Below, one piece after another: positions 12,043 to 26,800 of a stretch of DNA of 64,000 nucleotides. This DNA comes from Franzmannia pantelleriensis. GTDB lineage: Bacteria > Pseudomonadota > Gammaproteobacteria > Pseudomonadales > Halomonadaceae. Each line of letters begins with the position of its first letter. Position 1 is the first letter of the stretch. The translations under genes were made by a program, and so were the position numbers. The notes under the pieces were generated by a model. The model made no database searches, was not told where the DNA came from, and worked only from the letters and a program-made list of their open reading frames with translations. The DNA is taken from NCBI RefSeq assembly GCF_900102875.1, contig NZ_FNGH01000006.1, positions 62,001 through 126,000 of the forward strand, given 5' to 3'.

Positions 12043-12708
12043 CTAGTCCTCCTCCATCCCCTGTTCGCGCTGAGCAAGATGCCAGCCGCCAAGGTCCTTG
12101 TAGCGGTTGACCATGGCGCAGAACAGCTCGGCGGTGCGCTCGGTGTCGTAGCGTGCCGAGTGCGCCGATGAGTTGTCGAACTCGATGCCGGCGGCACGGC
12201 AGGCGCGGGCCAGTACCGTCTGGCCGTAGACGAGGCCTGCCAGTGAGGCGGTGTCGAAGCTCGAGAAGGGGTGGAAGGGGTTGCGCTTGATACCGCAGCG
12301 GGCCACGGCAGCGTTGAGGAAGCCGTGGTCGAAGGCGGCATTATGGCCGACCAGCACCGCACGGGTGCAGCCGTTGGCCTTGATGGCCTTGCGCACCGGG
12401 CGAAAGATCTCACCCAGTGCTTCCGCTTCGCTTAGGGCCACCTTCTGGCGCAGCGGATCGTCTAGCTTGATGCCGGTAAAATCCAGCGCCGACTGCTCGA
12501 CGTTGGCGCCCTCGAAAGGGGCGATATGAAAGGCATAGGTGGCGTCGGGCGCGAGTACGCCATCCGCATCCATGGACAGTGTGACCGCGGCAATCTCGAG
12601 GATTGCATCTCCCTGGGCGTTGAAGCCGCCGGTTTCGAGGTCCACCACTACAGGCAGGAAACTGCGAAAACGCTTAGCCATCAGATCGCAGGCGATTGCC
12701 TCGCTCAT
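12043..12708 (-). CDS. rnt: Ribonuclease T
   Basis: A 3'-5' exoribonuclease that matures tRNA and other stable RNA 3' ends and can trim DNA. The DEDDh exonuclease fold is visible: motif I VVVDLETGG with Asp23 and Glu25, motif II VGHNAAFDHGFL, and motif III HSARYDTERT with the catalytic His and Asp. I use the ATG at 12708 (221 residues), which has GGAGAGG four to ten bases upstream. The in-frame GTG at 12720 overlaps that ribosome-binding site. The close match to RNase T (GAxFDxxFL-like motif, RNPFHPFSSFDT) separates it from oligoribonuclease and DnaQ. Confidence 0.94.
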   Translation of the reverse strand: MSEAIACDLMAKRFRSFLPVVVDLETGGFNAQGDAILEIAAVTLSMDADGVLAPDATYAFHIAPFEGANVEQSALDFTGIKLDDPLRQKVALSEAEALGEIFRPVRKAIKANGCTRAVLVGHNAAFDHGFLNAAVARCGIKRNPFHPFSSFDTASLAGLVYGQTVLARACRAAGIEFDNSSAHSARYDTERTAELFCAMVNRYKDLGGWHLAQREQGMEED

Positions 12709-12830
12709 GCACCTCTCCACTACCGATTAACAAATTCCCTGGCGGTCACCCGCATTGGCTGAATGAGAGTTTATCAGCTTTGCCAGCCCTTTGCCGCGGT
12801 GCGGCGGTATTCGTGGCTGCCCATCGGCGC

Positions 12831-12871: not shown

Positions 12872-14092
<1,221 letters not shown>

Positions 14093-14117
14093 GCGCTCGC
14101 TGGGCGAGGAGGCTTAG

Positions 14118-14408
14118 ATGCTCAAGAAGTTGTTTTCCGGGCTGCTCGGCGGAGGTGGCGACAAGGCCGCTGCCGAGGCCGAGCCGGTCGAGTACAAGGG
14201 TTACCTGATCGTGCCTGATCCGCAGGATCGTGACGGCCAGTATCGCGTCAGCGGATGGATCCGTAAGCCGGTGACGGAGGGTGAGACCCTCGAGCACCGC
14301 TTCGAGCGCTCCGACGTGGTGTCCGGTCGCGAGGCCTGCGAGACGCTGATGATCAGCAAGGCGCAGCGCTTCATTGATGATCTGGGCGATGCCATCTTCG
14401 AGAAGTAG
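14118..14408 (+). CDS. HlyU-family protein
   Basis: A 96-residue protein of the HlyU-like family (Pfam HlyU, not the ArsR-type HlyU of Vibrio). It has a Gly-rich linker after a short hydrophobic start (KKLFSGLLGGGG), then a compact domain with VEYKGYLIVPDPQDRDGQYRVSG and the tail SKAQRFIDDLGDAIF. The family is widespread and poorly characterised. GAGGAGG lies 8 bases before the ATG, and the 25-base gap to argG suggests co-transcription. No firm function can be given. Confidence 0.75.
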   Translation: MLKKLFSGLLGGGGDKAAAEAEPVEYKGYLIVPDPQDRDGQYRVSGWIRKPVTEGETLEHRFERSDVVSGREACETLMISKAQRFIDDLGDAIFEK

Positions 14409-14427
14409 CCTGCCATCGCTCCCAACG

Positions 14428-14453
14428 GCGCGGCGCCCCCAGGGGCGCCGCGC
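14428..14453 (+). terminator. Strong GC hairpin after the argG operon
   Basis: A perfect 12-bp inverted repeat (gcgcggcgcccc / ggggcgccgcgc) with a 2-base centre. No T-run follows. Confidence 0.45.
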
Positions 14454-14545
14454 GCGTATTCAGCGTCAGGTACCATGCGCCCTTTGGCCAAGCGCGCCAC
14501 CGCCGGACAGGGCGCTACACTGGGGGCACCACCAAGGAGCCTGCC

Positions 14546-15679
14546 ATGCGTCTGCTGCATCGAGCCTCGCCTTGGCGCACGCTGTTCGCCAGCGACGCGC
14601 CTCCCGATTCCAGTGACTGGCCGCCGCTGCTGGCTCCGCTGGCCGATGCCATCGCCGCCCTGGGACCGGCGCCGAGCCTCGCCGCTGCCAAGGCCTGGCA
14701 GCCGCAGCTGGTCGAGGCGCTGCAGCGTCTCGATCTGCCTGCCTGGCGGATCAGCCAGCTGCTCAGTGATCACAACGACTGGCTCTACCGCCAGGCCATA
14801 GAGCGGAGCCTGAATGCCATGCGCGCAGCGGGCTGGGGCGAGCCGCCGGCGCGGTGTTGCGTATTGACGCTGGGTTCTGGCGCCCGCCATGAGAGCCTGT
14901 TGGGGCCGGATCAGGACAACGCCATGATTCTCGAGGATTACCCGGACAGTGCGCATACCGAGATCGATGGCTACTTTCAGGCGCTTGGCGAGCGCATGAC
15001 CGATGCGCTGGATGACGCCGGTATTCCACTCTGCAACGGCCACGTAATGGCGCGTTGGCCAATGTGGCGTAAACGACTTGGCGAGTGGGGGCGACAGCTG
15101 GATATCTGGACCGCTGAACGCCGCGTCAAGCGCGTGCAGCAGGCCAATATCCTGCTCGATTTTTACCCCGTATACGGCGACTCTGCGCTGGCAGAGTCGC
15201 TGCATGACGTGGTCGCGGCACTGGTCCCTCGCTCGGCGCTGTTCCTCGACGAGATGGCCAGCCTGCTGGACGAGACGCCGGTGGCGCTCGACCGTCTTGG
15301 TCGCCTGGCAGGCGACGACGATGGCGCCCCGCACGAGCGCGCCATCAATCTCAAACGTCAGGGGCTGCTGCCGCTCAGCGGGGCCGTGCGTCTACTGGCG
15401 ATGCGCCAGGGCTGCAGGGTGCCGGATACCCGCGGCCGGCTGAGCGAGCTGGTGATGGCGGGGGTGCTGGATGTGCCGCGTGCCGCTGCGCTTGGCGACG
15501 CACTGGGCCGCCTACAGGGCCTGGTGCTGGATGCCCAGCTGACCAGCCTGTCCGCCGGCCGCAGTGCCGATGGTTGGGTCGATACGGCGCGTCTCGATGC
15601 GGCGCAGCAGTTACTGCTGCGCCACGATCTTCAGGAGATTCGGCGCCTGATCAAGACGGCGAAAAGCATGAATAGATAA
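14546..15679 (+). CDS. DUF294-type putative nucleotidyltransferase
   Basis: A 377-residue protein with a GlnD/DUF294-like nucleotidyltransferase core: GSGARHESLLGPDQDNAMI at 110-128 is the GSxxRxE...DxD catalytic signature. It is followed by the DUF294 substrate-binding helical region (ALFLDEMASLLDETPVAL, later GPHERAINLK-like). The CBS and cyclic-nucleotide domains that often precede this core are absent; the first ~100 residues are a short helical region instead. In several gammaproteobacteria this family sits beside a DnaQ-like exonuclease and an acetate-type symporter. Here the exonuclease is about 4.3 kb away on the other strand. The substrate is unknown. An AAGGAG site precedes the ATG. 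Confidence 0.75.
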   Translation: MRLLHRASPWRTLFASDAPPDSSDWPPLLAPLADAIAALGPAPSLAAAKAWQPQLVEALQRLDLPAWRISQLLSDHNDWLYRQAIERSLNAMRAAGWGEPPARCCVLTLGSGARHESLLGPDQDNAMILEDYPDSAHTEIDGYFQALGERMTDALDDAGIPLCNGHVMARWPMWRKRLGEWGRQLDIWTAERRVKRVQQANILLDFYPVYGDSALAESLHDVVAALVPRSALFLDEMASLLDETPVALDRLGRLAGDDDGAPHERAINLKRQGLLPLSGAVRLLAMRQGCRVPDTRGRLSELVMAGVLDVPRAAALGDALGRLQGLVLDAQLTSLSAGRSADGWVDTARLDAAQQLLLRHDLQEIRRLIKTAKSMNR

Positions 15680-15686
15680 CGCTGCC

Positions 15687-16910
15687 TTATTGCGATGTAG
15701 ATAGTGTCGTCAACAGCGCGAGTGCATCTTGATGTGCCTGCTGGTAGATATTGAAGAGCCGCAAGTCTTCACTCTCCGACGACCACTCCCGCATGGCCAG
15801 GCATTTCTCGGTGATTTCGATACGCTGCAAGACCTTGCCGTAGGGACCTTCGCGACCTAGCGTGGCGGCCATGGTAGATGAATCGAGTCCAAGGCTGGTT
15901 AAAAATTCTTCGCCGGGAATGCCAAGGAGTAACTCGGCCGAGGAGAGCAGCCCGATAAAGTAGGCGTCCTGGCCGTTCAAGCCATCCCGCTTGGCCAACA
16001 GCTCGCAGGCTTTGGCCCGGGTCAATGCCAGTTCGCTATGCGCTGAGCTGGCACTACCCAGCAGGCCAAACAGGGCGGCCCAGCTGGAGAGCTGCTGGAA
16101 GCCGATCCTGGCCACCACATCGCGCAGCGAACTAATGGGGGCGTGTTGATTGAAGTAGGCGCTGTTGGCAATGCGAGTTAACTTGATGGCGAGCTCAGGA
16201 TCGGCCTGTATCAATGCGATGATGGCATCAATGCTTGGTTCGCTATGACGGAGAGTCTTGAGCAGCTGCGTGGCGTATAGGGTGGTGGCGGGAAGTTTCT
16301 TGCCATACACGGGTTGCGGCCGTGCATAGTAGTAGCCTTGGAAGAGCTCAAACCCCATTTGGCGGTACGCGTCGCGCTCCTCTCGGGTCTCCACGCGTTC
16401 AGCGATCCACTTGAGATCCAAGTGCGATAATCGTTGTTTGTGTCGTGCCACTTTTGACGCCTCGACCGAGGAAATATCGACCTTGAGGTAGGATGACAGC
16501 TCGAGCAGAGGCGCCCATTCGGGGGTGAAGTTGAAATCGTCTAAGGCGAAGCGGTAGCCCTGATTGTGTAGGCATCTAACTGCATCGATCAAGGCCTGGT
16601 CCGGTGTGGTGCGTTCGACGAGTTCGATCACCACCTGATCAGGGGAAACGGGCAGGAAGTGTGGTGACAGCAATAGTGCTGCAGAGACATTGATAAAGGT
16701 CGGCACCTTGGAAAAACTGATGCGCTGCATGATTGCAGTATTAAGATGGTAAACGACTTCGGCCGTGGCCACTTCATCACCAACGTCAAGCGCTCCTAGT
16801 CCGGTGTCGCTTCGGTAGAGAAGTTCCACCCCATGAATCGCATCATGGCCATCAAAGATTGGCTGCGACGCCAGTAGCAGAGAATTAACGCCAGTCGTTG
16901 ATTTGGACAT
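15687..16910 (-). CDS. EAL-HDOD signalling protein (YuxH type), EAL motif degenerate
   Basis: A 407-residue two-domain protein with an N-terminal EAL-like domain (about 10-200) and a C-terminal HDOD domain (about 205-400). The catalytic EAL motif reads ELL in GVELLYRS (28-34), and the DDF-like segment FALDDFNF is retained but other metal ligands are not obvious, so c-di-GMP hydrolysis is doubtful. The family often acts as a binding scaffold in motility and biofilm control. Base composition is visibly less GC-rich than its neighbours (16201-16260 is half G+C), which suggests separate ancestry. It is convergent with the DUF294 gene, with 7 bases between the stops. Confidence 0.85.
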   Translation of the reverse strand: MSKSTTGVNSLLLASQPIFDGHDAIHGVELLYRSDTGLGALDVGDEVATAEVVYHLNTAIMQRISFSKVPTFINVSAALLLSPHFLPVSPDQVVIELVERTTPDQALIDAVRCLHNQGYRFALDDFNFTPEWAPLLELSSYLKVDISSVEASKVARHKQRLSHLDLKWIAERVETREERDAYRQMGFELFQGYYYARPQPVYGKKLPATTLYATQLLKTLRHSEPSIDAIIALIQADPELAIKLTRIANSAYFNQHAPISSLRDVVARIGFQQLSSWAALFGLLGSASSAHSELALTRAKACELLAKRDGLNGQDAYFIGLLSSAELLLGIPGEEFLTSLGLDSSTMAATLGREGPYGKVLQRIEITEKCLAMREWSSESEDLRLFNIYQQAHQDALALLTTLSTSQ

Positions 16911-17006
16911 TCCGTTGGCCTCAAGTTAGGACGCAGAATGATATATCGACGCTGCCAGCATCTTCTTTAACCTGAGCTAGCCAATTGCCTGGTTCTGGAG
17001 AGGCAG

Positions 17007-19742
17007 TTAGCGCTCTTCTGGGTGTGCCTCCGGTAGCTCCATCACCAGGCAGGCGCCGCCCAGAGTGGGGGCCTCCTCGACCCATAGCCGGCCGCCGAGG
17101 TGGGCGACGATGCCGCGGCTGATAGGCAGGCCCAGGCCGCTGCCGCGTGGACGGCCGCGGGCCTTGCCACTGTCGTGCTGCTGCTTGATCTGATGGAATT
17201 TCTCGAACACCCGCTCGCGCTCTTCGGCGCTGATACCGGGACCGTTGTCCTCCACGGCCAGGCACCACTGTTGCTTGTGACGCCACAGGTGCAAGCGCAC
17301 GCGCGGTGCCTGCTCGTCGGCGAACTTACTGGCGTTATCGAGCAGGTTGATGATCACCTGTTCGAGGCGATCCGGATCGCCGACCACCCAGGCCTCCTCT
17401 GCCTCGAGGTCGACGCTCAGGGACACGCCGCGCTGCTCCTGGACGCGCTGCACCGCGGCCACGCTCTGGTGGGCCAGTGCGGCGAGGTCCAGCGGCTGGG
17501 GATTGAGGGTCAGGCGCCCGCTCTCGAGGCGCGCCAGGTCGAGGATTTCCTCGATCAGCCGTGAAAGACGCTGACTCTCCAATACCATCACGTCGAGGAA
17601 GTGCGCGCGCTTGTCGTCGGGCAGCGACTGGCCGTCGCGGAGTATCTCGGCAAAGGCGCGAATCGAGGTCAGCGGCGTTCGCAGCTCGTGGCTGACCATG
17701 GCCACGAACTCATCCTTGAGCCGGTCGAGCTCGCGCAGCCGCTCGTTGGCGGCACGCAGCTCCTCGCCGATGCGTGCCAGCTCGGCGGACTTCTGCTCCA
17801 GGCGGCGGTTGTACTCGAGGGTCTGCGAGGTGGTGTCGAGAATGCTCAGCACTGCCTCCAGATCGAGCGCCTCGCCGCGCACCACCGAGTTGATCAGCAC
17901 CCGCGCCGAGGCGCTGCCCAATGCCCCGGTCAGCGCCTGCTCGGCGCTGGCAATCACCTCCGGGGGCACCGCCTGCTGGTCGCCGTCGTCACGCTGGCCG
18001 GCAAACACTCGAGTCGCGGCGCCGGCGCCCAGGTAGCGCGCCAGCAGCGCTTCGAGTTCGCCGCGGGTGGTCTGACCCTGCCACAGGCTGGCATAGCTAA
18101 CAGCAGAATCCAACGCACCGGCGAACAAGGCTGCCTGAGTCTGCTCGAGACGGCTCTGGCGGGTGAACAGTGACACGCCCACCAGCACCCCGACGTTGGC
18201 CAGCAGGCTCCACATCAGCGAGTGGCTGTAGATGTCGGCATTCTCGAGGCCGAACAGGGCGTAGGGGCGCAGCCAGGCGATGCCCAGCGGGCCGGACTCG
18301 ACGAAGCTCGGATCCAGCCAGCCGGACTGGGCGAAGCCCGGCAGCAACAGGGTGTAGACCCACACCAGGAAGCCGGCGATCAGGCCGCCGGTAGCGCCGA
18401 GCCGGGTGGCGCCGCGCCAGTAGAGACCGATCAGCAGCGCCGGGGCGAACTGGCAGGCGGCGGCGAAGGAGACCAGCCCGATGGTCACCAGGCTGTAGGA
18501 GTCGCCGACCAGCGCGTGGTAGAGATAGCCGAGCAGCAGGATCAGCACGATCGCCACGCGACGGATGCCCAGCAGCCAGCCGGTGAGCTCGCCTCGAGAG
18601 CCCAGGTGCAAGCGCGACGAGCGCAGCAGCAGCGGCATCACCAGATGGTTGCTGACCATGGTCGAGAGGGCGATGGTCTCGACGATGACCATGCCGGTAG
18701 CCGCCGAGAGCCCGCCGATGAAGACCAGCAGCGGCAGTCCCTCGAGCCCCGCCGAGAGGGGCAGGGTGAGCACGAAGCTATCCGGGTCGCTGGCACCGTT
18801 GCCGAGCAGCATACCGGCCATGGCGATGGGGATCACGAACAGGTTGATGGCCAGCAGGTAGAGGGGGAACAGCCAGCTGGCACGCTTGAGGTGGCGTTCG
18901 TCGACGTTCTCCACCACCAGTACCTGAAACTGGCGGGGCAGGGTCAGAAACGCCAGAAACGCCAGTGCCAGGGTGCCGACCCAGCCCAGCGCGCCGCCGG
19001 GCACGGCGTCGAGGCTCAGCGCATCGACCAGCGCCGGATGTTCGGCGGTGCGCGCGAACAGGTCGGCGGGCCCGTGGAACAGTACGAACACGGTGAAGAT
19101 GCCCACCGCCAGGAACGCCACCAGCTTGACCAGCGACTCGAAGGCGATGGCCGCGACCATGCCCTCGTGGCGCTCGCTGGCGTCCAGATGGCGAGTGCCG
19201 AACAGGATAATGAACACCGCCAGCACCAATGCTACCCAGAACGACTTGTCGACCCAGAAACTCTCCTCGGCCAGCCTCAGTTCCGGTGCTGCCGGGTAGT
19301 TGACCAACACCGCATGACTCAAGGTAATGGCCTTGAGCTGCAGGGCAATATAGGGGGTGATGCCGATCAGGGCGATCAGCGCGACCAGCGCCCCGAGGCT
19401 GCCACTCTTGCCGTAGCGGGCGCTGATGAAGTCGGCAATGGAGGTGATGCGCTGGGCACGGGCGATGCGCACCATCTTGCGGATCAGAAACGGTGCGCCG
19501 AGCATCGCCAGGGTCGGCCCCAGGTAGATCAGCAGGAAACTGGGGCCGTACTCTGTGGCGCGGCCGACGCTGCCGTAGAAGGTCCAGGCGGTGCAGTAGA
19601 CGGCAATCGACAGTGCGTAGATGGTGGGTGAGCCGATCAGCGATCGTCCCTGCTCGGCGCGGCGGTCGCCCCAGGCAGCGATCACGAACAGCAGCGCCAG
19701 GTAGCCGAAGGCCACCGTCAACACCACCGGATCGGTTCTCAC
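17007..19742 (-). CDS. SLC5-type transporter/sensor histidine kinase (CbrA/CrbS-like)
   Basis: A 911-residue membrane sensor kinase. Residues 1 to about 490 form a sodium:solute symporter-like domain with about 13 helices (for example SVGRATEYGPSFLLIYLGPTL). A linker of about 100 residues containing LLARYLGAGAATR resembles the STAC region, then comes a coiled coil. The HisKA box MVSHELRTPLTSIRAF has its phospho-His near 685, the N box is INLLDNASKF, and the G boxes are DNGPGI and GSGLGLPIS. It resembles CbrA (amino-acid/carbon control in Pseudomonas) and CrbS (acetate switch), but shows no PAS and no receiver. The GTG start overlaps the upstream small gene by GTGA, so translation is coupled. 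The cognate regulator may be the receiver at 22101; the ligand is unknown. Confidence 0.88.
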   Translation of the reverse strand: MRTDPVVLTVAFGYLALLFVIAAWGDRRAEQGRSLIGSPTIYALSIAVYCTAWTFYGSVGRATEYGPSFLLIYLGPTLAMLGAPFLIRKMVRIARAQRITSIADFISARYGKSGSLGALVALIALIGITPYIALQLKAITLSHAVLVNYPAAPELRLAEESFWVDKSFWVALVLAVFIILFGTRHLDASERHEGMVAAIAFESLVKLVAFLAVGIFTVFVLFHGPADLFARTAEHPALVDALSLDAVPGGALGWVGTLALAFLAFLTLPRQFQVLVVENVDERHLKRASWLFPLYLLAINLFVIPIAMAGMLLGNGASDPDSFVLTLPLSAGLEGLPLLVFIGGLSAATGMVIVETIALSTMVSNHLVMPLLLRSSRLHLGSRGELTGWLLGIRRVAIVLILLLGYLYHALVGDSYSLVTIGLVSFAAACQFAPALLIGLYWRGATRLGATGGLIAGFLVWVYTLLLPGFAQSGWLDPSFVESGPLGIAWLRPYALFGLENADIYSHSLMWSLLANVGVLVGVSLFTRQSRLEQTQAALFAGALDSAVSYASLWQGQTTRGELEALLARYLGAGAATRVFAGQRDDGDQQAVPPEVIASAEQALTGALGSASARVLINSVVRGEALDLEAVLSILDTTSQTLEYNRRLEQKSAELARIGEELRAANERLRELDRLKDEFVAMVSHELRTPLTSIRAFAEILRDGQSLPDDKRAHFLDVMVLESQRLSRLIEEILDLARLESGRLTLNPQPLDLAALAHQSVAAVQRVQEQRGVSLSVDLEAEEAWVVGDPDRLEQVIINLLDNASKFADEQAPRVRLHLWRHKQQWCLAVEDNGPGISAEERERVFEKFHQIKQQHDSGKARGRPRGSGLGLPISRGIVAHLGGRLWVEEAPTLGGACLVMELPEAHPEER

Positions 19743-20017
19743 TGCGAGCCTCGCGACGGCGGCTCGGACATCTCGTCAGCGCGGGTGGCGGGCCGCCGAG
19801 ACGTGTCGTCGTGGCCTCCTGCGGGGTCGTGGCGATACTCGAGCAGCCAGGCTGCCAGCGCGATCACCAGCGCCCAAGCGACGAACAGATAGAGTGCCAG
19901 CCACGACAGGCCGTTGGCGGCGGGACGATCGGCGATCAGGATCAGCGGCGGGCTGAACAGCACCAGTGCTACGCCGATCAGGGCGACCAGTCGTTCACCG
20001 AGACGCGGTGTCTTCAT
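19739..20017 (-). CDS. Small two-helix membrane protein upstream of the SLC5 kinase (CbrX-like position)
   Basis: A 92-residue protein with two hydrophobic helices (about 8-29 and 37-60) and a polar tail rich in Asp, Arg and Ser. It overlaps the exonuclease gene upstream (20014-20017) and the kinase gene downstream (GTGA at 19739-19742), so it is sandwiched in one coupled message. A small frame called cbrX occupies the equivalent place ahead of cbrA in Pseudomonas, where it couples translation. The resemblance is one of position and size; I cannot show homology from sequence alone. Confidence 0.7.
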   Translation of the reverse strand: MKTPRLGERLVALIGVALVLFSPPLILIADRPAANGLSWLALYLFVAWALVIALAAWLLEYRHDPAGGHDDTSRRPATRADEMSEPPSRGSQ

Positions 20018-22101
20018 GCGCTGGCATCCTCACGGTCGAAGGCGCCGGCCTGCAGGGTCAGCGCTTCCTGTAGCGTGACCACGCCTCGTGCCTCCAGGCG
20101 CGGCAGCAGTGCCAGCCACAGCTCGGCGGTCAGGCGGGCATCACCCAGCGCGGTATGCCGGGCGCCCTCGGGTATGTTGAGGTCGAAGCGACTGGCCAGG
20201 CTGTCGAGGTCGTGACCGTCGAGGCTGGGGTCCAGTGCCCGGGACAGCAGCAGGGTGTCGAGTACCGGCAGCTGGAAGTCGACGCCGGCGCCGGGGGGCT
20301 GGATCGCCAACAGGTCGAAGGCGGCGTTGTGGGCCAGCAACACCGCTTCGCCGACATAGCGGCGAAAGCGCGGCAGCACCAGATGCAGCGGTGGGGCGCC
20401 GGCCACATCGGCATCGCGCAGGCCGTGGATCACCGTGCTGGCCGGGGGAATCGGGCGGCCCGGATCGACCCGCATGTCGAAGGTGTCGTCGGCCAGCAGG
20501 CGGGCGTTGACCACCCGGCAGGCCCCGAGGCTGATGACGGTATCGCCGCGGCGAAGCTCGAGCCCGGTGGTCTCGGTATCGAAGGCGACGATCTCCAAGG
20601 CACGCAGCGAGCAGGCAGCCAACTCGGCATCCGGTGGTGGCAGATCGGCGATGCCGAAGTCATGGAACTCCGGACGTGGGGTCTTGTGGGCGGCGGGGGC
20701 GCCGACCCGCTCGACGGCGGGGAGCGGCAGGCGCAGGCGGGCGTGCTCGCCGTCGGCATCGGCCAGACTCCAGGCGTCACTGCCGTGCTGCAGGAGCAGC
20801 TCGCCGATGCTGGGCGCCAGCGGGAGGCTCTCGAGGTGCTCGGCGTGCCATTCGGCAAGGGTGCGTTGGGGCAGTGGCCTCCCGCGCCAGATCAGGTCGA
20901 GGTAGACACGGCGGTTGCCCAGGCACAGCTCGCCTTCGAGGGCGTGACGACCGGTGGTCTGATGCAGCCGCTCGAGCAGTGCCTCGAGCAGCGCCAGCAG
21001 CGCCGGGGCATCGCCCTTGAACCAGGCCGGCATGCCGATCGGCGTGACACGGGGCAGTTCGGGCAGGTGGTCGAGGCGTTCATTGAGCGACTGCCAGAGA
21101 TCGTTGGACCACAGCGGCACCAGGCGCTCCCCCTGCTGCTGCAGGTCGTCGATACGCTGGCTGAGTCGCTCGATTTCGGTAGTCAGCGCGCGACTCTCTT
21201 CGTCGATGGCGGCGGTAATGCGCGTGCGCAGCGGATGACTGTCGCTGGCTGCCTGGTCAGCAGCGAGTCGTGACAGGGTCTCGGCGGCGCTGGCCAGGCC
21301 GGCGCCGTGACGCCGCAGCGAGGGCAGCAGCTCGCCGAGCGCGGCGCGAGTATGACTCTCGTCGGTGAGGCTGGCAGTGGTGTCGGTCAGCGTGATCAGG
21401 GTCTCGCCCTGGCTCTGGGGAACCCGCTTGAGCAGACAACGCAGCCAGCGCTCGTCGCTGGGTACCAGCAGCTCGCGGGGGGCGCCGTCGTCGGGCAGCC
21501 GTGCCAGGGCATCCTGCAGGCTGGCCACGCCGATGAGCCCCTCCAGTCGCTTGCCCAGGCCCAGCCCGGGGTGGCCGTCGAACAGCGTCTCGGCGGCGTG
21601 ATTGAAGAGCAGAATGCGGCGGTGCTGGTCACACAGCAGCAGCGGCGTCTCCAGCACCTGTAGCAGCGACTCCAGCTCGAGGCGAATGCGTGCCGCGCTG
21701 CGTGCGCCCTCGGTATGGGCGGTGGCCAGCTGCTGGCGGTCCTGGCGCCAGCCGTCGCGTAGGCGTGCCAGGTCGGGGCCGAGGCCCTTGAGCCAGCCTT
21801 CGGGGGGGTAGTCGTCGCGGGCGTCGGGGTTGGCCGCCAGGCGTGCCATCTGTACTTGCAGATGGCGCAGCGGGGTGAACAGGCGACGTTCTAGCACCAA
21901 CCCCAGCAGCAGGATCAGCACGCCGCCGCCGAGGCTACCGGCCCACAGCGCGATCCGCTGGATACCACTGGGCGCCAGCTCGGCATCCAGCCACAGCGCC
22001 AGCAGGGCGCCGCTGAAGAAGGCCAACCCACTGACCAGCAGCCAGGCGCCGACCAGCCGCTGGCGGCGGGGCAGGTGACCACGGGCGGGACGCGGCGCCA
22101 T
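20014..22101 (-). CDS. Membrane-anchored PAS / DnaQ-like 3'-5' exonuclease fusion
   Basis: A 695-residue protein with an unusual order. Two membrane helices (about 16-38 and 50-72) flank a short loop, followed by a HAMP-like linker, a PAS-like domain (about 145-240, LLQVLETPLLLCDQHRRILLFNHAAETLF) and a kinase-like helical region without a recognisable HisKA box. A complete DEDDh exonuclease ends it. Exo I is FDTETTGLE (Asp508, Glu510), Exo II LLAHNAAFDLL (Asp596), and Exo III HTALGDARLT (His649, Asp654). The PolC/DnaQ epsilon-type hallmark VIHGLRDADV is present. It starts one base into the receiver stop (TGATG) and overlaps the next gene by 4 bases. A sensor-like chassis on a nuclease suggests signal-gated nucleic-acid processing at the membrane, but no substrate is known. 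Confidence 0.85.
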   Translation of the reverse strand: MAPRPARGHLPRRQRLVGAWLLVSGLAFFSGALLALWLDAELAPSGIQRIALWAGSLGGGVLILLLGLVLERRLFTPLRHLQVQMARLAANPDARDDYPPEGWLKGLGPDLARLRDGWRQDRQQLATAHTEGARSAARIRLELESLLQVLETPLLLCDQHRRILLFNHAAETLFDGHPGLGLGKRLEGLIGVASLQDALARLPDDGAPRELLVPSDERWLRCLLKRVPQSQGETLITLTDTTASLTDESHTRAALGELLPSLRRHGAGLASAAETLSRLAADQAASDSHPLRTRITAAIDEESRALTTEIERLSQRIDDLQQQGERLVPLWSNDLWQSLNERLDHLPELPRVTPIGMPAWFKGDAPALLALLEALLERLHQTTGRHALEGELCLGNRRVYLDLIWRGRPLPQRTLAEWHAEHLESLPLAPSIGELLLQHGSDAWSLADADGEHARLRLPLPAVERVGAPAAHKTPRPEFHDFGIADLPPPDAELAACSLRALEIVAFDTETTGLELRRGDTVISLGACRVVNARLLADDTFDMRVDPGRPIPPASTVIHGLRDADVAGAPPLHLVLPRFRRYVGEAVLLAHNAAFDLLAIQPPGAGVDFQLPVLDTLLLSRALDPSLDGHDLDSLASRFDLNIPEGARHTALGDARLTAELWLALLPRLEARGVVTLQEALTLQAGAFDREDASA

Positions 22102-22472
22102 CAGCCTGCCTCGCCGAGCAGGCCCTGTACCTTGTCGACCAGCGCCTGGGTAGAGAACGGCTTGGTAATGTAGTCGTCGGCGCCCAGCGCCAGGCCCTTC
22201 TCGCGCTCCACTTCACGTCCGTGGGCGGTCAGCATGATGATCGGCAAGTCGGTATGGGCGGGGTCGGCGCGCAGCTGCTCGAGCACGTCGAAGCCGCTGA
22301 TGCCGGGCAGGCTGATATCCAGCAGGACCAGGTCGGGAGCGCCTTCGGCCACACTGGCCAGGGCGCTTTCGCCATCCTCGGCGGTGACCACATCGAAACC
22401 CGCCTGCTGCATCAGAAACTCCAGTGACAGGACGATGTTGGGCTCATCGTCCACCACCAGTACCTTGGCCAT
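22101..22472 (-). CDS. CheY-like single-domain response regulator
   Basis: A 123-residue stand-alone receiver. The acidic pocket is VDDE (8-11), the phosphoacceptor Asp is in [10 protein letters not shown] (about 52), and the switch residues are MLTAHG and TKPF. There is no output domain, so it must act through a partner. It is first in the four-gene operon with the exonuclease, the small membrane protein and the SLC5 kinase, and is the obvious candidate phosphate acceptor for that kinase. The palindrome GACTGCAGTC lies about 35 bases upstream, at 22506-22515. Confidence 0.92.
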
Positions 22473-22602
22473 GGCGGCTCTCCCTTCTGCGATGGCGTGT
22501 CTGTTGACTGCAGTCTAGTGGGGCAGGCAAGGGAGGGGAAAGACGACCTTGGCAGGAGGTGGTAGGGTTTACGTTCCTCTTTCCATCGACATGGAGCGCT
22601 CG

Positions 22603-23283
22603 ATGATCAAGGTTCACCATCTGGAAAACTCCCGTTCACAGCGGGTGGTCTGGCTGCTCGAGGAGCTGGGCGCCGAGTATGAGATCGTCACCTACCGCCG
22701 CGATCCCAAGACCATGTTGGCGCCGCCATCGCTCAAGCAGGTGCATCCGCTGGGCAAGTCGCCGGTGATCACCGATGAGGCGCATGAGGGCCGGGCAGTC
22801 GCAGAATCCGGCGCGATCATCGAGTACCTGCTGGAGCGCTTCGACGATGGGCGCCTGGTGCCAGCAGTGGGCAGCGACGAGCACCTGCGCTATCGTTTCT
22901 GGCTACATCATGCCGAGGGCTCGGCGATGCCGCCGCTGGTGATGAGTCTGGTCTTCTCAATGCTCGGCAAGCCGCCGGTGCCGGCCCTGATTCGGCCGAT
23001 CGGCAAGCTGCTGGGGCAGGGCGTGCAGCAGAAATTCCTCGATCCGCAGATCAAGGATTTGCTGGCGTTGTGGGAGGCCGAACTCGAGCGCTCGACGTGG
23101 TTTGCCGGCGACGCCTTCAGTGCGGCGGATATCCAGATGAGCTTTCCGCTGCTGGCGGCCGAGAGGCGTCGCGGGCTCGAGGGGTACCCGTCGCTGCGGG
23201 GCGCACTGGCGCGTATTCGTGAACGGCCCGCCTACCAGCGTACGGTGGCGCAGATAGGTGAGTTTTCGTCGCCGGGGCGCTGA
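22603..23283 (+). CDS. Glutathione S-transferase family protein
   Basis: A 226-residue GST. The N-terminal thioredoxin-like domain begins MIKVHHLENSRSQRVVWLLEELG, with the Ser-Arg-Ser-Gln active-site region near 9-12 and the cis-Pro turn HPLGKSPVI near 50; the ESGAIIEYLLERF glutathione-binding segment follows. The C-terminal helical domain ends near RPAYQRTV. I place the start at 22603, with GGAG six bases upstream, because the longer frame adds an unrelated leader. The substrate is unknown. It lies alone between divergent and convergent neighbours. Confidence 0.88.
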   Translation: MIKVHHLENSRSQRVVWLLEELGAEYEIVTYRRDPKTMLAPPSLKQVHPLGKSPVITDEAHEGRAVAESGAIIEYLLERFDDGRLVPAVGSDEHLRYRFWLHHAEGSAMPPLVMSLVFSMLGKPPVPALIRPIGKLLGQGVQQKFLDPQIKDLLALWEAELERSTWFAGDAFSAADIQMSFPLLAAERRRGLEGYPSLRGALARIRERPAYQRTVAQIGEFSSPGR

Positions 23284-23307
23284 CGCTTCGACGCCTGGTG
23301 CGCCATT

Positions 23308-24366
23308 TCATCGACTCCCTTCATGGCCTGACTGCAGGAGGCCGATCTCCTGTGCTTGAACCCTGGGAAGCCCAAAGCAGCTCAACCGAAAAACACCGCG
23401 CATCAGTACATTGCTGCCGATTGAGACGTTATTCGTAGCGACGATCATGCGCAGGCGTCGCCGCGAGATCTTGACCTGTTCACCGGCCGTATAGCCGGGG
23501 TTGTCGGCAATGTTGCGCAGCGTTGCGAGCGCCATGCCGATCGACCAGCTGCAGAACCGTCGAATACCGACCTCGGCAGCCGGAATACGTAGCGTGTAGT
23601 CTTGTGCCAAGCGCAGATGATGGTGGGCAACGGCGACCAGAAAGCGGATGCCGTCGCGATAGCCTGGATGATCCTGCCAGTCATGCGCCTGCATCAGGTC
23701 AACGCCTCGCGCCATGAAGACGTCACGCGGGAGCCAGCAGATGCTGCGCTGGCGATCCTCCCAGACGTCTTTCAGAATATTGGTCAACTGCAGCCCCTGA
23801 CCGAAGGCCAACGACAGCCGCTGAAGCTCGTCGCGCTGGTCGTGGATGTGTGGATTGATGTCGGCGAACAGACGGGTCAGCATTTCGCCAACGCAGCCAG
23901 CCGCCACGTAACAGTAATCGCGCAGGCAGCCGCTGTCCTCAAGGCCATGCGGGTTCTTCAGGCGCTCGAACTCAGCCATGCCGAGGCACATGGTGGAGAC
24001 GCACTCGCGCAACGCTCCCTGCTGCGCGTCCGGCAGTTCGCGGAAAGCGCGCAGCACGCCGGGTGTCTGGACTATGAGGTCTCGTTCCAGAGGGTCTTGT
24101 AACAATCCGGTACCGAGCAGTGCCTCAGAGAACTCTCGGGCGGCGCTGGCATCACTCAGACCTGCCAGCAGGCGCCGGTAGTGAGCGTCTTTGTCGTCGG
24201 GCGCTATGGCGGTGCTATCTTCCACCGTGTCGGCAATGCGACATAGGAGATAGGCATTGGTGATCGCTGGGCGCAGGCGGGACGGTAACTGAGGGATGGT
24301 CAGGGCAAACGTCCGCGAGACACCGGGCAATAGCTGGTTCTGCAGGGCGAGCGAGGCAGGCCTCAT
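23308..24366 (-). CDS. Squalene synthase-like (squalene/phytoene synthase family)
   Basis: A 352-residue trans-isoprenyl diphosphate synthase head-to-head condensing enzyme. The two aspartate-rich motifs are intact: DTVED at 46-50 and DVWED at 200-204. SRTFALTIPQLP (17-28), YCYVAAGCVGEMLTRLF (151-167) and GLQLTNILKDVWED resemble the eukaryotic-type squalene synthase more than CrtB or HpnD. The predicted reaction is two farnesyl diphosphates to squalene. The long C-terminal region lacks a clear membrane anchor. No hopene cyclase, HpnC/E or carotenoid genes are nearby, so the end product is uncertain. Confidence 0.8.
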   Translation of the reverse strand: MRPASLALQNQLLPGVSRTFALTIPQLPSRLRPAITNAYLLCRIADTVEDSTAIAPDDKDAHYRRLLAGLSDASAAREFSEALLGTGLLQDPLERDLIVQTPGVLRAFRELPDAQQGALRECVSTMCLGMAEFERLKNPHGLEDSGCLRDYCYVAAGCVGEMLTRLFADINPHIHDQRDELQRLSLAFGQGLQLTNILKDVWEDRQRSICWLPRDVFMARGVDLMQAHDWQDHPGYRDGIRFLVAVAHHHLRLAQDYTLRIPAAEVGIRRFCSWSIGMALATLRNIADNPGYTAGEQVKISRRRLRMIVATNNVSIGSNVLMRGVFRLSCFGLPRVQAQEIGLLQSGHEGSR

Positions 24367-25100: not shown

Positions 25101-25120
25101 CTGTGCTAGGAGCCTGCCTC

Positions 25121-26800
25121 ATGAGTGCTATCGTTCTGCTGGTGCTAGGTCTTGCCGGGATGGCCGGGGGGTACTTCGTGTACTCCAAGTTCATCGCCGA
25201 GAAGATTTATCGCCTCGATCCCGACTTCAAGACGCCTGCCCATGAGTACGAGGACGGCGTCGACTTCGTGCCCACCAACCGCTTCATTCTCTGGGGCCAC
25301 CACTTCACCTCGGTGGCCGGTGCCGCGCCTATTGTCGGGCCGGCCATTGCGGTGATCTGGGGCTGGCTGCCGGCCTTCCTGTGGGTGGTGTTCGGCACCA
25401 TCTTTTTTGCCGGGGTGCACGACTTCGGCGCCATCTGGGCCAGCGTGCGCAACAAGGCCAAGTCGGTGGGGGCCCTTACCGGCGATGTGGTAGGTAGCCG
25501 TGCGCGTAGCATCTTCATGATCGTGATCTTCCTGGTGCTATTGATGGTCAACGCGGTGTTCGCGGTGGTCATCGCCGGGCTGATGATGAATTTCTCCAGC
25601 GCCGTGGTCCCGGTGTGGGGTGCGATCCTGGTGGCATTGATCATCGGTCAGTTGATCTATCGCCGCATGCTGAGCCTGCCGGCGGTCTCGGTGATCGGGG
25701 TGATCGCGCTTTACGCGCTGATTGGCCTCGGGCCGTCGGTGCCGCTGCAGATGCCCGCTGAGGTGGCTGGCCTCTCTGGCAATGCGGTATGGATCCTGAT
25801 TCTGTTTGGCTATGCCGCCATCGCTTCGCTGCTGCCGGTTTGGGTGCTGCTGCAGCCGCGCGATTACATCAACGGCCTGCAGCTGTTTATTGGCCTAATC
25901 GTGCTCTATGGCGCCATTCTGCTGCTCAATCCGAGCGTTGTCGCGCCGATGGTCAACAGCGACGTACCGGCAGGAACGCCGTCGATGTTGCCATTGCTGT
26001 TCGTGACCATCGCCTGCGGCGCGATCTCCGGCTTTCACGGGCTGGTCTCGTCGGGTACCACGTCCAAGCAGCTCAACAAGGAAACCGATGCCCGCTTCGT
26101 CGGCTACTTTGGTGCCGTGGGTGAAGGCATGCTGGCGCTGGCCGCGATCCTCGCCGCCACCGCTGGCTTTGCGAGCCTGGCCGACTGGCAAGCCATGTAC
26201 ACTGCCTTCGGTGCGGGCGGCGTGAATGCCTTCGTCGAGGGCGGCGCCTTCATGATCCACAATGGCCTGGGGCTGCCGGAAGCCACCGCCGCGACCCTGC
26301 TGACGGTAATGGCGGCGCTGTTCGCCGGTACTACCATGGATACTGGCCTGCGCCTGCAGCGCTATATCTTCCAGGAGTGGGGCGAGATCTATCAGCAGCC
26401 ATGGATGAAGAAGTCGGCCCCGGCGACGCTGCTGGCGGTGGGTAGCTGCCTGCTGCTGGCCTTCGGTGCCGGCGGTGCCGATGGCACCGGTGGCATGATC
26501 ATCTGGCCGCTGTTTGGTACCACTAACCAGCTGCTGGCGGGTCTGACCCTGCTGGTGATCACGGTGATGCTGGTGCGCCTGCGTCGGCCGATGTGGTACA
26601 CCCTGGTGCCGCTGTGCTTCCTGCTGGTGATGACCATTGCCGCGCTGCTGATGCAGCTGCGCACCTTCTTCAACGACGGTAACTACTTCCTGCTGTTCCT
26701 GGATATCGTGGTGCTGATTGCTGCGATAATGGTGGCCATGGAGTGTGCGGCGGCGCTCAAGCGCGCCCGCACGGAAATGGCCGAACAGGGTGAGGGGTGA
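25121..26800 (+). CDS. CstA/BtsT-family carbon starvation transporter
   Basis: A 559-residue multi-helix membrane protein of the CstA family, whose characterised members take up pyruvate or peptides. Family landmarks are the opening AIVLLVLGLAGMAGGYFVYSKFIAEKIY, HEYEDGVDFVPTNRFILWGHHFTSVAGAAPIVGPA (about 42-78), FHGLVSSGTTSKQL, and GTTMDTGLRLQRYIFQE. It is shorter than E. coli CstA (about 700). I use the ATG at 25121 with AGGAG 8 bases upstream. The usual YbdD/DUF466 partner is absent; a CC-ending small protein follows instead, 22 bases downstream. Confidence 0.9.
   Translation: MSAIVLLVLGLAGMAGGYFVYSKFIAEKIYRLDPDFKTPAHEYEDGVDFVPTNRFILWGHHFTSVAGAAPIVGPAIAVIWGWLPAFLWVVFGTIFFAGVHDFGAIWASVRNKAKSVGALTGDVVGSRARSIFMIVIFLVLLMVNAVFAVVIAGLMMNFSSAVVPVWGAILVALIIGQLIYRRMLSLPAVSVIGVIALYALIGLGPSVPLQMPAEVAGLSGNAVWILILFGYAAIASLLPVWVLLQPRDYINGLQLFIGLIVLYGAILLLNPSVVAPMVNSDVPAGTPSMLPLLFVTIACGAISGFHGLVSSGTTSKQLNKETDARFVGYFGAVGEGMLALAAILAATAGFASLADWQAMYTAFGAGGVNAFVEGGAFMIHNGLGLPEATAATLLTVMAALFAGTTMDTGLRLQRYIFQEWGEIYQQPWMKKSAPATLLAVGSCLLLAFGAGGADGTGGMIIWPLFGTTNQLLAGLTLLVITVMLVRLRRPMWYTLVPLCFLLVMTIAALLMQLRTFFNDGNYFLLFLDIVVLIAAIMVAMECAAALKRARTEMAEQGEG

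Follow-up and report, generated by a model that had tools for sequence, protein, structure and literature searches.

A membrane-anchored PAS and pseudokinase-like protein ending in a DEDDh exonuclease domain, encoded beside a stand-alone receiver and a DUF294 nucleotidyltransferase in Franzmannia pantelleriensis

What does an exonuclease of the DnaQ type do at the end of a membrane-bound sensor, and what would switch it? The question is raised by a gene in a 64,000-nucleotide stretch from the salt-loving bacterium Franzmannia pantelleriensis (contig NZ_FNGH01000006.1, positions 62,001 to 126,000 of the forward strand), the whole of which is called the window below. The original prediction, made from the letters alone, placed an open reading frame (ORF) with all five DEDDh nuclease residues at 20014-22101, described the front end of its product as a sensor kinase with the kinase removed (two helices, a HAMP-like linker and PAS), and proposed a structure prediction of that front end and a tree of the nuclease domain with its fusions as checks. 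The genes around it, among them a receiver, a transporter-histidine kinase and a DUF294 nucleotidyltransferase, were left out of that account. In this study, the ORF and the five residues were confirmed, on the minus strand (no strand had been given), for a protein of 695 amino acids.

The reading that we favour, with somewhat more confidence than doubt, is that a DivL-like pseudokinase senses the receiver and gates a 3′-5′ exonuclease of the DEDDh type, which is paired with the DUF294 nucleotidyltransferase in the control of small carboxylates. If it is true, this would be a two-component output whose effector is carried by a dead kinase, not by a DNA-binding protein, and whose effector is a nuclease. 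The parts are known, but joined as they are here, a dead kinase of the DivL kind with an exonuclease output and an own receiver, tied to DUF294, they appear to be new; no paper on the fusion was found among the matches listed by a full-text search of the open-access literature, judged by titles and abstracts and not covering subscription papers.

The exonuclease domain and its kinase-derived front end

The DEDDh set of the protein comprises Asp508, Glu510, Asp596, His649 and Asp654, and it was intact in all rows of three partly overlapping alignments: 36/36 diverse homologues, 78/78 Halomonadaceae rows, from which L078 (no start codon found), L119 (match ending at 651) and L132 (cut) had been left out, and 47/47 rows of a third set. 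Pfam RNase_T matched residues 505-661 (E 2e-21), the nearest solved structures were the exonucleases of PolC and DnaQ (epsilon), with E of 2e-16 to 4e-15, and among the NCBIfam matches listed (25 of 27) the sole curated cut-off passed was that of TIGR00573, a general epsilon-family model (73.9 vs. 71.5 bits). Profile match and D-E-D-H-D set place the protein in the RNase_T/DnaQ superfamily, and metal-dependent 3′-5′ exonuclease activity is predicted for it. The open frame is not a product of chance, as residues 1-469 had matches in 81 of the family's 151 genomes (E 1e-3), 78 once the weak partial matches in G038, G068 and G125 are set aside; the plus-strand reading of the same interval is interrupted by stops. 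The linker motif ahead of the nuclease (Table 1) is partly substituted in several alphaproteobacterial homologues. In a quick tree of 84 exonuclease domains, the check proposed earlier, the fusions fell into two parts, and a single clade was not rejected by the approximately unbiased test (p-AU 0.365).

Fold family and catalytic residues are those of the DnaQ and PolC exonucleases, from which the fusion differs in its membrane-anchored, kinase-derived front end and in its gene context. Matches to DnaQ epsilon models and structures could be taken to mean an ordinary membrane-tethered exonuclease of DNA proofreading or repair, or a scaffold whose nuclease has fallen into disuse. We consider this very unlikely, because the catalytic residues are intact in every row checked, the neighbourhood is one of carbon metabolism, and the genome has a better-matching stand-alone PF00929 protein of 257 amino acids (C18) that could serve as epsilon. 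The proofreading role was rejected on gene context.

Two hydrophobic stretches were found at the N-terminus (19-residue windows starting near residues 16 and 49), and the AlphaFold model, built on the 78 rows, showed two long helices at 12-42 and 47-90, which together fit the two membrane passes supposed at first. The HAMP-like linker fared less well: it can be seen by eye, but no HAMP model was among the six families listed for the protein. The same model gave a PAS-like fold and so bore out the PAS domain, since residues ~137-242 fit solved PAS domains (VIA-align 2, Z 9-10) and, with E allowed up to 1, PAS models matched 28-29 of the 36 homologues (best 2.5e-9); in the protein itself PAS_4 was below the Pfam cut-off (E 0.0024). 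PAS was kept in 46 of 46 aligned loci, including those without the kinase body described next.

The claim that the kinase had been removed did not stand. Behind PAS, the AlphaFold model has a DHp-like hairpin (residues 242-325, helices 242-281 and 290-322) and then an alpha/beta domain (335-461), with predicted local distance difference test (pLDDT) values of 69-91 by block over the front end and a whole-protein mean of 63.6. The DHp-CA chain of a kinase, 6lgq_C, could be laid over 244-469 (VIA-align 2, Z 10.5, root-mean-square deviation (rmsd) 10.1, 197 residues aligned), and the CA domains of PrrB, VanSA and AdeS matched residues 333-464 (VIA Z 9.4-9.7, rmsd about 3). The best Foldseek matches were histidine kinases, such as a WalK model (4e-12) and DivL (4q20, 1e-6), and, at the same limit of E 1, Pfam HisKA was matched by 9 of the 36 homologues (7.9e-5 at best); HATPase_c was not among the Pfam matches listed for the homologues (25 of 45 families). 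The DHp-CA fold of histidine kinases is present, the CA part being firmer than the hairpin.

The motifs of catalysis, in contrast, are gone. No His stands at the aligned acceptor position, set by eye three residues before Arg263, in the 36 or the 78 rows; of the 36 homologues 1 has DxGxG in its CA part, and of the 78 Halomonadaceae rows none has; and among the commonest letters listed for two putative N-box columns, picked by eye, are mostly L, F, V, I and A. Trp405 is invariant in both sets. Because the fold is kept while these motifs are lost, the kinase appears to be dead rather than removed. The body can also be absent in nature: short forms of ~480 amino acids (L173, L174, L175, L191 and L192) consist of membrane helices, PAS and exonuclease, so a PAS-nuclease unit can stand without it, and no receiver was found near these five. 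On the exonuclease-domain tree, forms lacking this body have at least two separate origins.

A precedent for such a body is DivL of Caulobacter, which likewise combines PAS with a DHp-CA body kept without kinase function. DivL is described as neither adding nor removing phosphate and as sensing phosphorylated DivK (DivK~P) via a docking surface (PMC4211667), so wiring from a receiver to a pseudokinase of this sort exists. The two proteins differ in that DivL has Tyr at the acceptor place and no exonuclease, whereas the fusion has other residues there and an exonuclease.

The receiver and the conserved gene set

The receiver gene lies upstream of the fusion gene, and its stop overlaps the start of the fusion by 1 base. 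The start-stop overlaps among receiver, fusion, small gene and transporter-kinase (Table 1) fit one operon, in which the place of the 92-amino-acid protein between fusion and transporter-kinase recalls that reported for CbrX before CbrA in Pseudomonas (PMC6591292). In the last of the four genes, a transporter domain is joined to an intact histidine kinase, as in SLC5/STAC kinases: residues 8-576, with the transporter part covered, matched the solved 'histidine kinase' chain 10ed_A (E 7.5e-80), and motifs H, N, G1 and G2 are kept; no Pfam transporter model appeared for this protein. These motifs were intact in 99 of 102 such genes compared, the other 3 being unaligned at some positions. The window kinase thus shares its transporter part and motifs with CrbS, CbrA and RpuS but, unlike them, has no C-terminal receiver, the receiver being a separate gene beside the exonuclease.

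A pattern scan of named genomes yielded 343 relatives, the best 80 all from Halomonadaceae; the nearest named one among those listed was that of Halomonas salipaludis, at 94 percent. Among the 69 of these 80 loci that are fully flanked (11 with short flanks were left out), hence among near relatives, receiver, fusion, transporter-kinase and DUF294 gene occur together in 69/69, and the small gene in 68/69. Over the 151 genomes of the family, 71 had both an orthologue of the transporter-kinase (E below 1e-200) and the fusion in its long form (E below 1e-100), and 77 had neither, including 5 with shortened or diverged fusions; 2 genomes had the fusion only, and 1 the kinase only, the latter (G075) on a contig that begins inside the kinase gene.

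An EAL-HDOD gene (15687-16910, minus strand) adjoins the operon. It brings up the alternative that the fusion is a membrane-tethered, oligoribonuclease-like enzyme that clears pGpG or other short RNAs beside a cyclic di-GMP (c-di-GMP) module, and DEDDh enzymes of the Orn type are indeed reported to act on short RNA (CpsORN, PMC6390093). This alternative is improbable, as EAL-HDOD is present in 16 of the 69 loci vs. 69 of 69 for DUF294, and the sequence is nearest to DnaQ and PolC among solved structures. Based on the former count, a c-di-GMP/pGpG module was rejected as the core of the system.

Farther afield in the phylum, the profile of the N-terminal part matched 205 of 398 genomes (E 1e-6 or better), 44 of them reaching E 1e-40; the weaker, partial matches are probably mostly other PAS or kinase proteins. 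Homologues with the same order of parts at ~30-35 percent identity were found in Paracoccus, Cupriavidus and Ciceribacter, annotated, where at all, as "3'-5' exonuclease" or "exonuclease domain-containing protein" (the plasmid records H6 and H12 carry no gene annotation). In other Proteobacteria outside Halomonadaceae, the set is partial or whole and often lies beside acs, DUF485/ActP or DUF4212/SSF genes. Locus L168 holds acs, DUF485, ActP, DUF294, receiver, fusion and transporter-kinase together, and Paracoccus denitrificans has acs, DUF4212, SSF, DUF294, receiver and exonuclease, with no transporter-kinase listed.

The receiver adjoins the fusion even where the transporter-kinase is missing from the stretch (L039, L042, L043 and L158-160), and the acceptor Asp was kept in 111 of 112 receivers adjoining a fusion. 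Both fusion-only genomes have altered receivers, with Asp52 replaced by Glu in G014 and Asp9 by Gly in G101. The Glu-for-Asp receiver of G014 (L184, 8506-8883, plus strand), which sits beside the fusion in a genome without a transporter-kinase orthologue, is possibly locked on.

Hairpin and receiver were then compared over 46 loci hand-picked for diversity, with short forms included on purpose, so that the counts are not frequencies. In 33/33 loci with an adjoining receiver, the DHp hairpin is 55 residues long or longer. Of the 13 loci that lack such a receiver, 8 retain no more than 43 residues of the hairpin, most of it being lost, and 3 of the 8 (L190, L193 and L243) keep CA; seen the other way, 8/8 loci without the hairpin are without the receiver. 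The association gives a Fisher p of 5e-6, with kinship ignored and with a 50-residue limit chosen after the counts had been seen. On a tree from other columns, 4 hairpin changes and 7 receiver changes were placed, and with kinship thus allowed for the association does not reach significance.

These observations suggest, by analogy with DivL, that the receiver docks on the dead kinase. In the mechanism that we propose, the co-encoded transporter-kinase would sense a small carboxylate of the acetate or pyruvate type and phosphorylate the stand-alone receiver, which would then dock on the DHp hairpin of the dead kinase, as DivK~P does on DivL, and alter the position or the activity of the exonuclease. 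A second input may come from the PAS domain. The DUF294 enzyme would be the partner of the exonuclease, the one adding a nucleotide and the other removing it, at the end of an RNA or on a nucleotidylated protein, thereby tuning carboxylate uptake or use. The signal-gated, membrane-tethered and PAS-linked exonuclease of the original prediction is supported in its anatomy, but the gene context points to the receiver as the gate rather than to a PAS ligand alone.

The DUF294-exonuclease pair and carboxylate use

The association of DUF294 with exonucleases extends beyond the fusion. It was surveyed in 60 hand-picked genomes, 54 with some, often weak, match to the N-terminal profile and 6 with none; of 84 DUF294 matches, the 45 at E 8e-8 or worse were left out, and PF00929 was searched in the 28 genomes with strong matches. 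Of the 39 DUF294 genes, 35 had a PF00929 exonuclease no more than 7 kb away, 27 of these with the two domains within 750 bases of each other, and in the genome of F. pantelleriensis itself 3/3 are near an exonuclease gene. Two genomes even fuse the pair in a single frame of the order exonuclease-CBS-CBS-DUF294-DUF294_C, with every domain above the Pfam cut-off (Table 1), and the two exonuclease domains concerned branch near the fusions in a weakly supported region of the tree. A loose pattern of the DUF294 active site was found in 110 of 111 genes, L190 being the one without; it was used instead of a stricter form that had missed 38 of 114. Genes for acs and acetate-type symporters lie beside many of the relatives.

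For the comparison with Pseudomonas putida, we take pp_0354 to carry DUF294, going by the described domains of its relative Pflu5625. There, genes for a CBS protein (pp_0354) and an RNase_T protein (pp_0353) are reported as an operon of the MxtR/ErdR (CrbS/CrbR) regulon (PMC9927547), and ErdR is reported to bind the pp_0354 promoter (PMC8402216). Growth on pyruvate was impaired by loss of pp_0353, mxtR or erdR, and neither gene of the pair mattered for growth on acetate (PMC9927547). Like the genes studied here, these are a regulator and a DEDDh-type exonuclease side by side, linked with an SLC5/STAC transporter-kinase and with the use of acetate or pyruvate (PMC9927547, PMC8402216, PMC5715377). 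Unlike the fusion, pp_0353 is a separate protein, for which no PAS or kinase body is mentioned, and the window exonuclease is joined to a membrane pseudokinase that has a receiver of its own. The fusion also opens a concrete way into the study of DUF294-exonuclease pairs; in P. putida, the nuclease of the pair is linked to growth on pyruvate by a mechanism that its account leaves open (PMC9927547).

The P. putida work also bears on another explanation, in which a ligand of the protein's own PAS domain or the state of the membrane gates the exonuclease, selected mRNAs are degraded by it, the receiver serves only the transporter-kinase or another partner, and DUF294 is a separate regulator. Its authors propose mRNA decay for pp_0353, and the nuclease gene was the only one of the pair with a phenotype (PMC9927547); further, PAS is there in all 46 aligned loci, even where DHp-CA is not. 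This explanation is possible though rather doubtful, since the receiver gene overlaps the fusion gene and adjoins it even without the transporter-kinase, hairpin loss always coincides with receiver absence, and DUF294 is associated with the exonuclease to the point of single-protein fusions.

Within the receiver-gated reading preferred here, a more specific version is that of a writer/eraser cycle, in which DUF294 would nucleotidylate an acetate- or pyruvate-uptake protein (or an RNA end) and the fusion would remove the nucleotide when the transporter-kinase reports substrate; it, too, is possible though rather doubtful. Pflu5625 of P. fluorescens, a member of the CrbS/R regulon, has cyclic-nucleotide (cNMP)-binding, CBS and nucleotidyltransferase domains, and protein nucleotidylation was predicted for it (PMC5715377). 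The DEDDh enzyme CpsORN is reported to hydrolyse pNP-TMP, the aryl ester of a 5′-nucleotide (PMC6390093); as this is the type of bond found in a nucleotidylated tyrosine, an eraser of protein-bound nucleotides is chemically possible, no more.

Several results weigh against the preferred reading. For the domains, the Foldseek template-modelling (TM) scores of the whole model were low (0.13-0.21), and the hairpin also matched unrelated coiled coils (the BBSome, 6vbu, Z 9.8; a YfmS-CheW model, Z 9.4), so that the DHp assignment depends on the HisKA matches and on position. A His three residues ahead of the acceptor position, present in at least 10 of the 36 homologues and 5 of the 78 Halomonadaceae rows, leaves room for phosphorylation elsewhere, and AlphaFold, given the 78-row alignment restricted to near relatives, returned a poor, low-confidence exonuclease domain. 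For the coupling of receiver and hairpin, the tree from other columns gave 3-4 agreeing pairs with 0 opposed, which is not significant (sign test p 0.125-0.25); in 5 loci (L041, L167 and L170-172) the hairpin is present and no receiver was found close by; and covariation between receiver and DHp gave no signal where docking would be expected in 101 receiver-exonuclease-kinase sets (effective sequences 23). As for the pair, 4 of the 39 DUF294 genes (G010, G245, G409 and G417) were without an exonuclease within 7 kb. Deletion of pp_0354 was harmless on pyruvate and acetate, while that of pp_0353 impaired growth on pyruvate (PMC9927547), and the Pflu5625 mutant was without phenotype (PMC5715377), results that disfavour a simple writer/eraser pair.

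Coordinates and remaining features

The features of the fusion gene and its partners are collected in Table 1.

Table 1. Positions of the features in the window and, in the last two rows, of the single-frame pairs in related loci
Feature	Coordinates	Strand	Basis
Main gene: membrane-anchored PAS / putative dead histidine kinase / DEDDh exonuclease, 695 aa (amino acids)	20014..22101	-	ORF, ATG start
Transmembrane helix 1, residues ~16-38	21988..22056	-	Hydropathy and model helix
Transmembrane helix 2, residues ~49-71, then HAMP-like stretch (by eye)	21889..21957	-	Hydropathy and model helix
PAS domain, residues ~137-242	21376..21693	-	VIA matches to solved PAS domains; PAS models in homologues
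DHp-like helical hairpin, residues ~244-325, acceptor His lost; proposed receiver docking site	21127..21372	-	Model helices and HisKA matches
Degenerate CA (HATPase-like) domain, residues ~333-464, G1 motif lost	20710..21105	-	VIA matches
Linker motif RPEF[HY]DF, residues 476-482, conserved	20656..20676	-	Alignments
DEDDh (DnaQ/RNase_T) exonuclease domain, residues ~503-675, catalytic residues intact	20077..20595	-	Pfam, solved structures, alignments
Stand-alone receiver, no output domain, 123 aa	22101..22472	-	Pfam Response_reg 4.3e-32
Small membrane protein, 92 aa, no assigned function	19739..20017	-	ORF; 4-base overlap with main gene
Transporter-histidine kinase (SLC5/STAC type), intact HisKA/HATPase	17007..19742	-	Pfam, solved chain; 4-base overlap with small gene
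DUF294 nucleotidyltransferase with DUF294_C, divergent	14546..15679	+	Pfam 2.8e-33 and 2.9e-25
Exonuclease-CBS-CBS-DUF294 single frame	L197 7296-9764	+	Pfam
Exonuclease-CBS-CBS-DUF294 single frame	L198 8037-10148	-	Pfam

No sigma-70 promoter match was found in 14000-23400, and terminator-like matches in the same interval numbered 2, vs. 4.0 expected by shuffling. Close to the operon lies a transporter gene (25103-26800, plus strand), present in 23 of the 69 related loci, the product of which is presumably a carbon-starvation transporter of the CstA type. A second, separate PF00929 exonuclease, presumably RNase T-like, is encoded at 12043-12720 on the minus strand.

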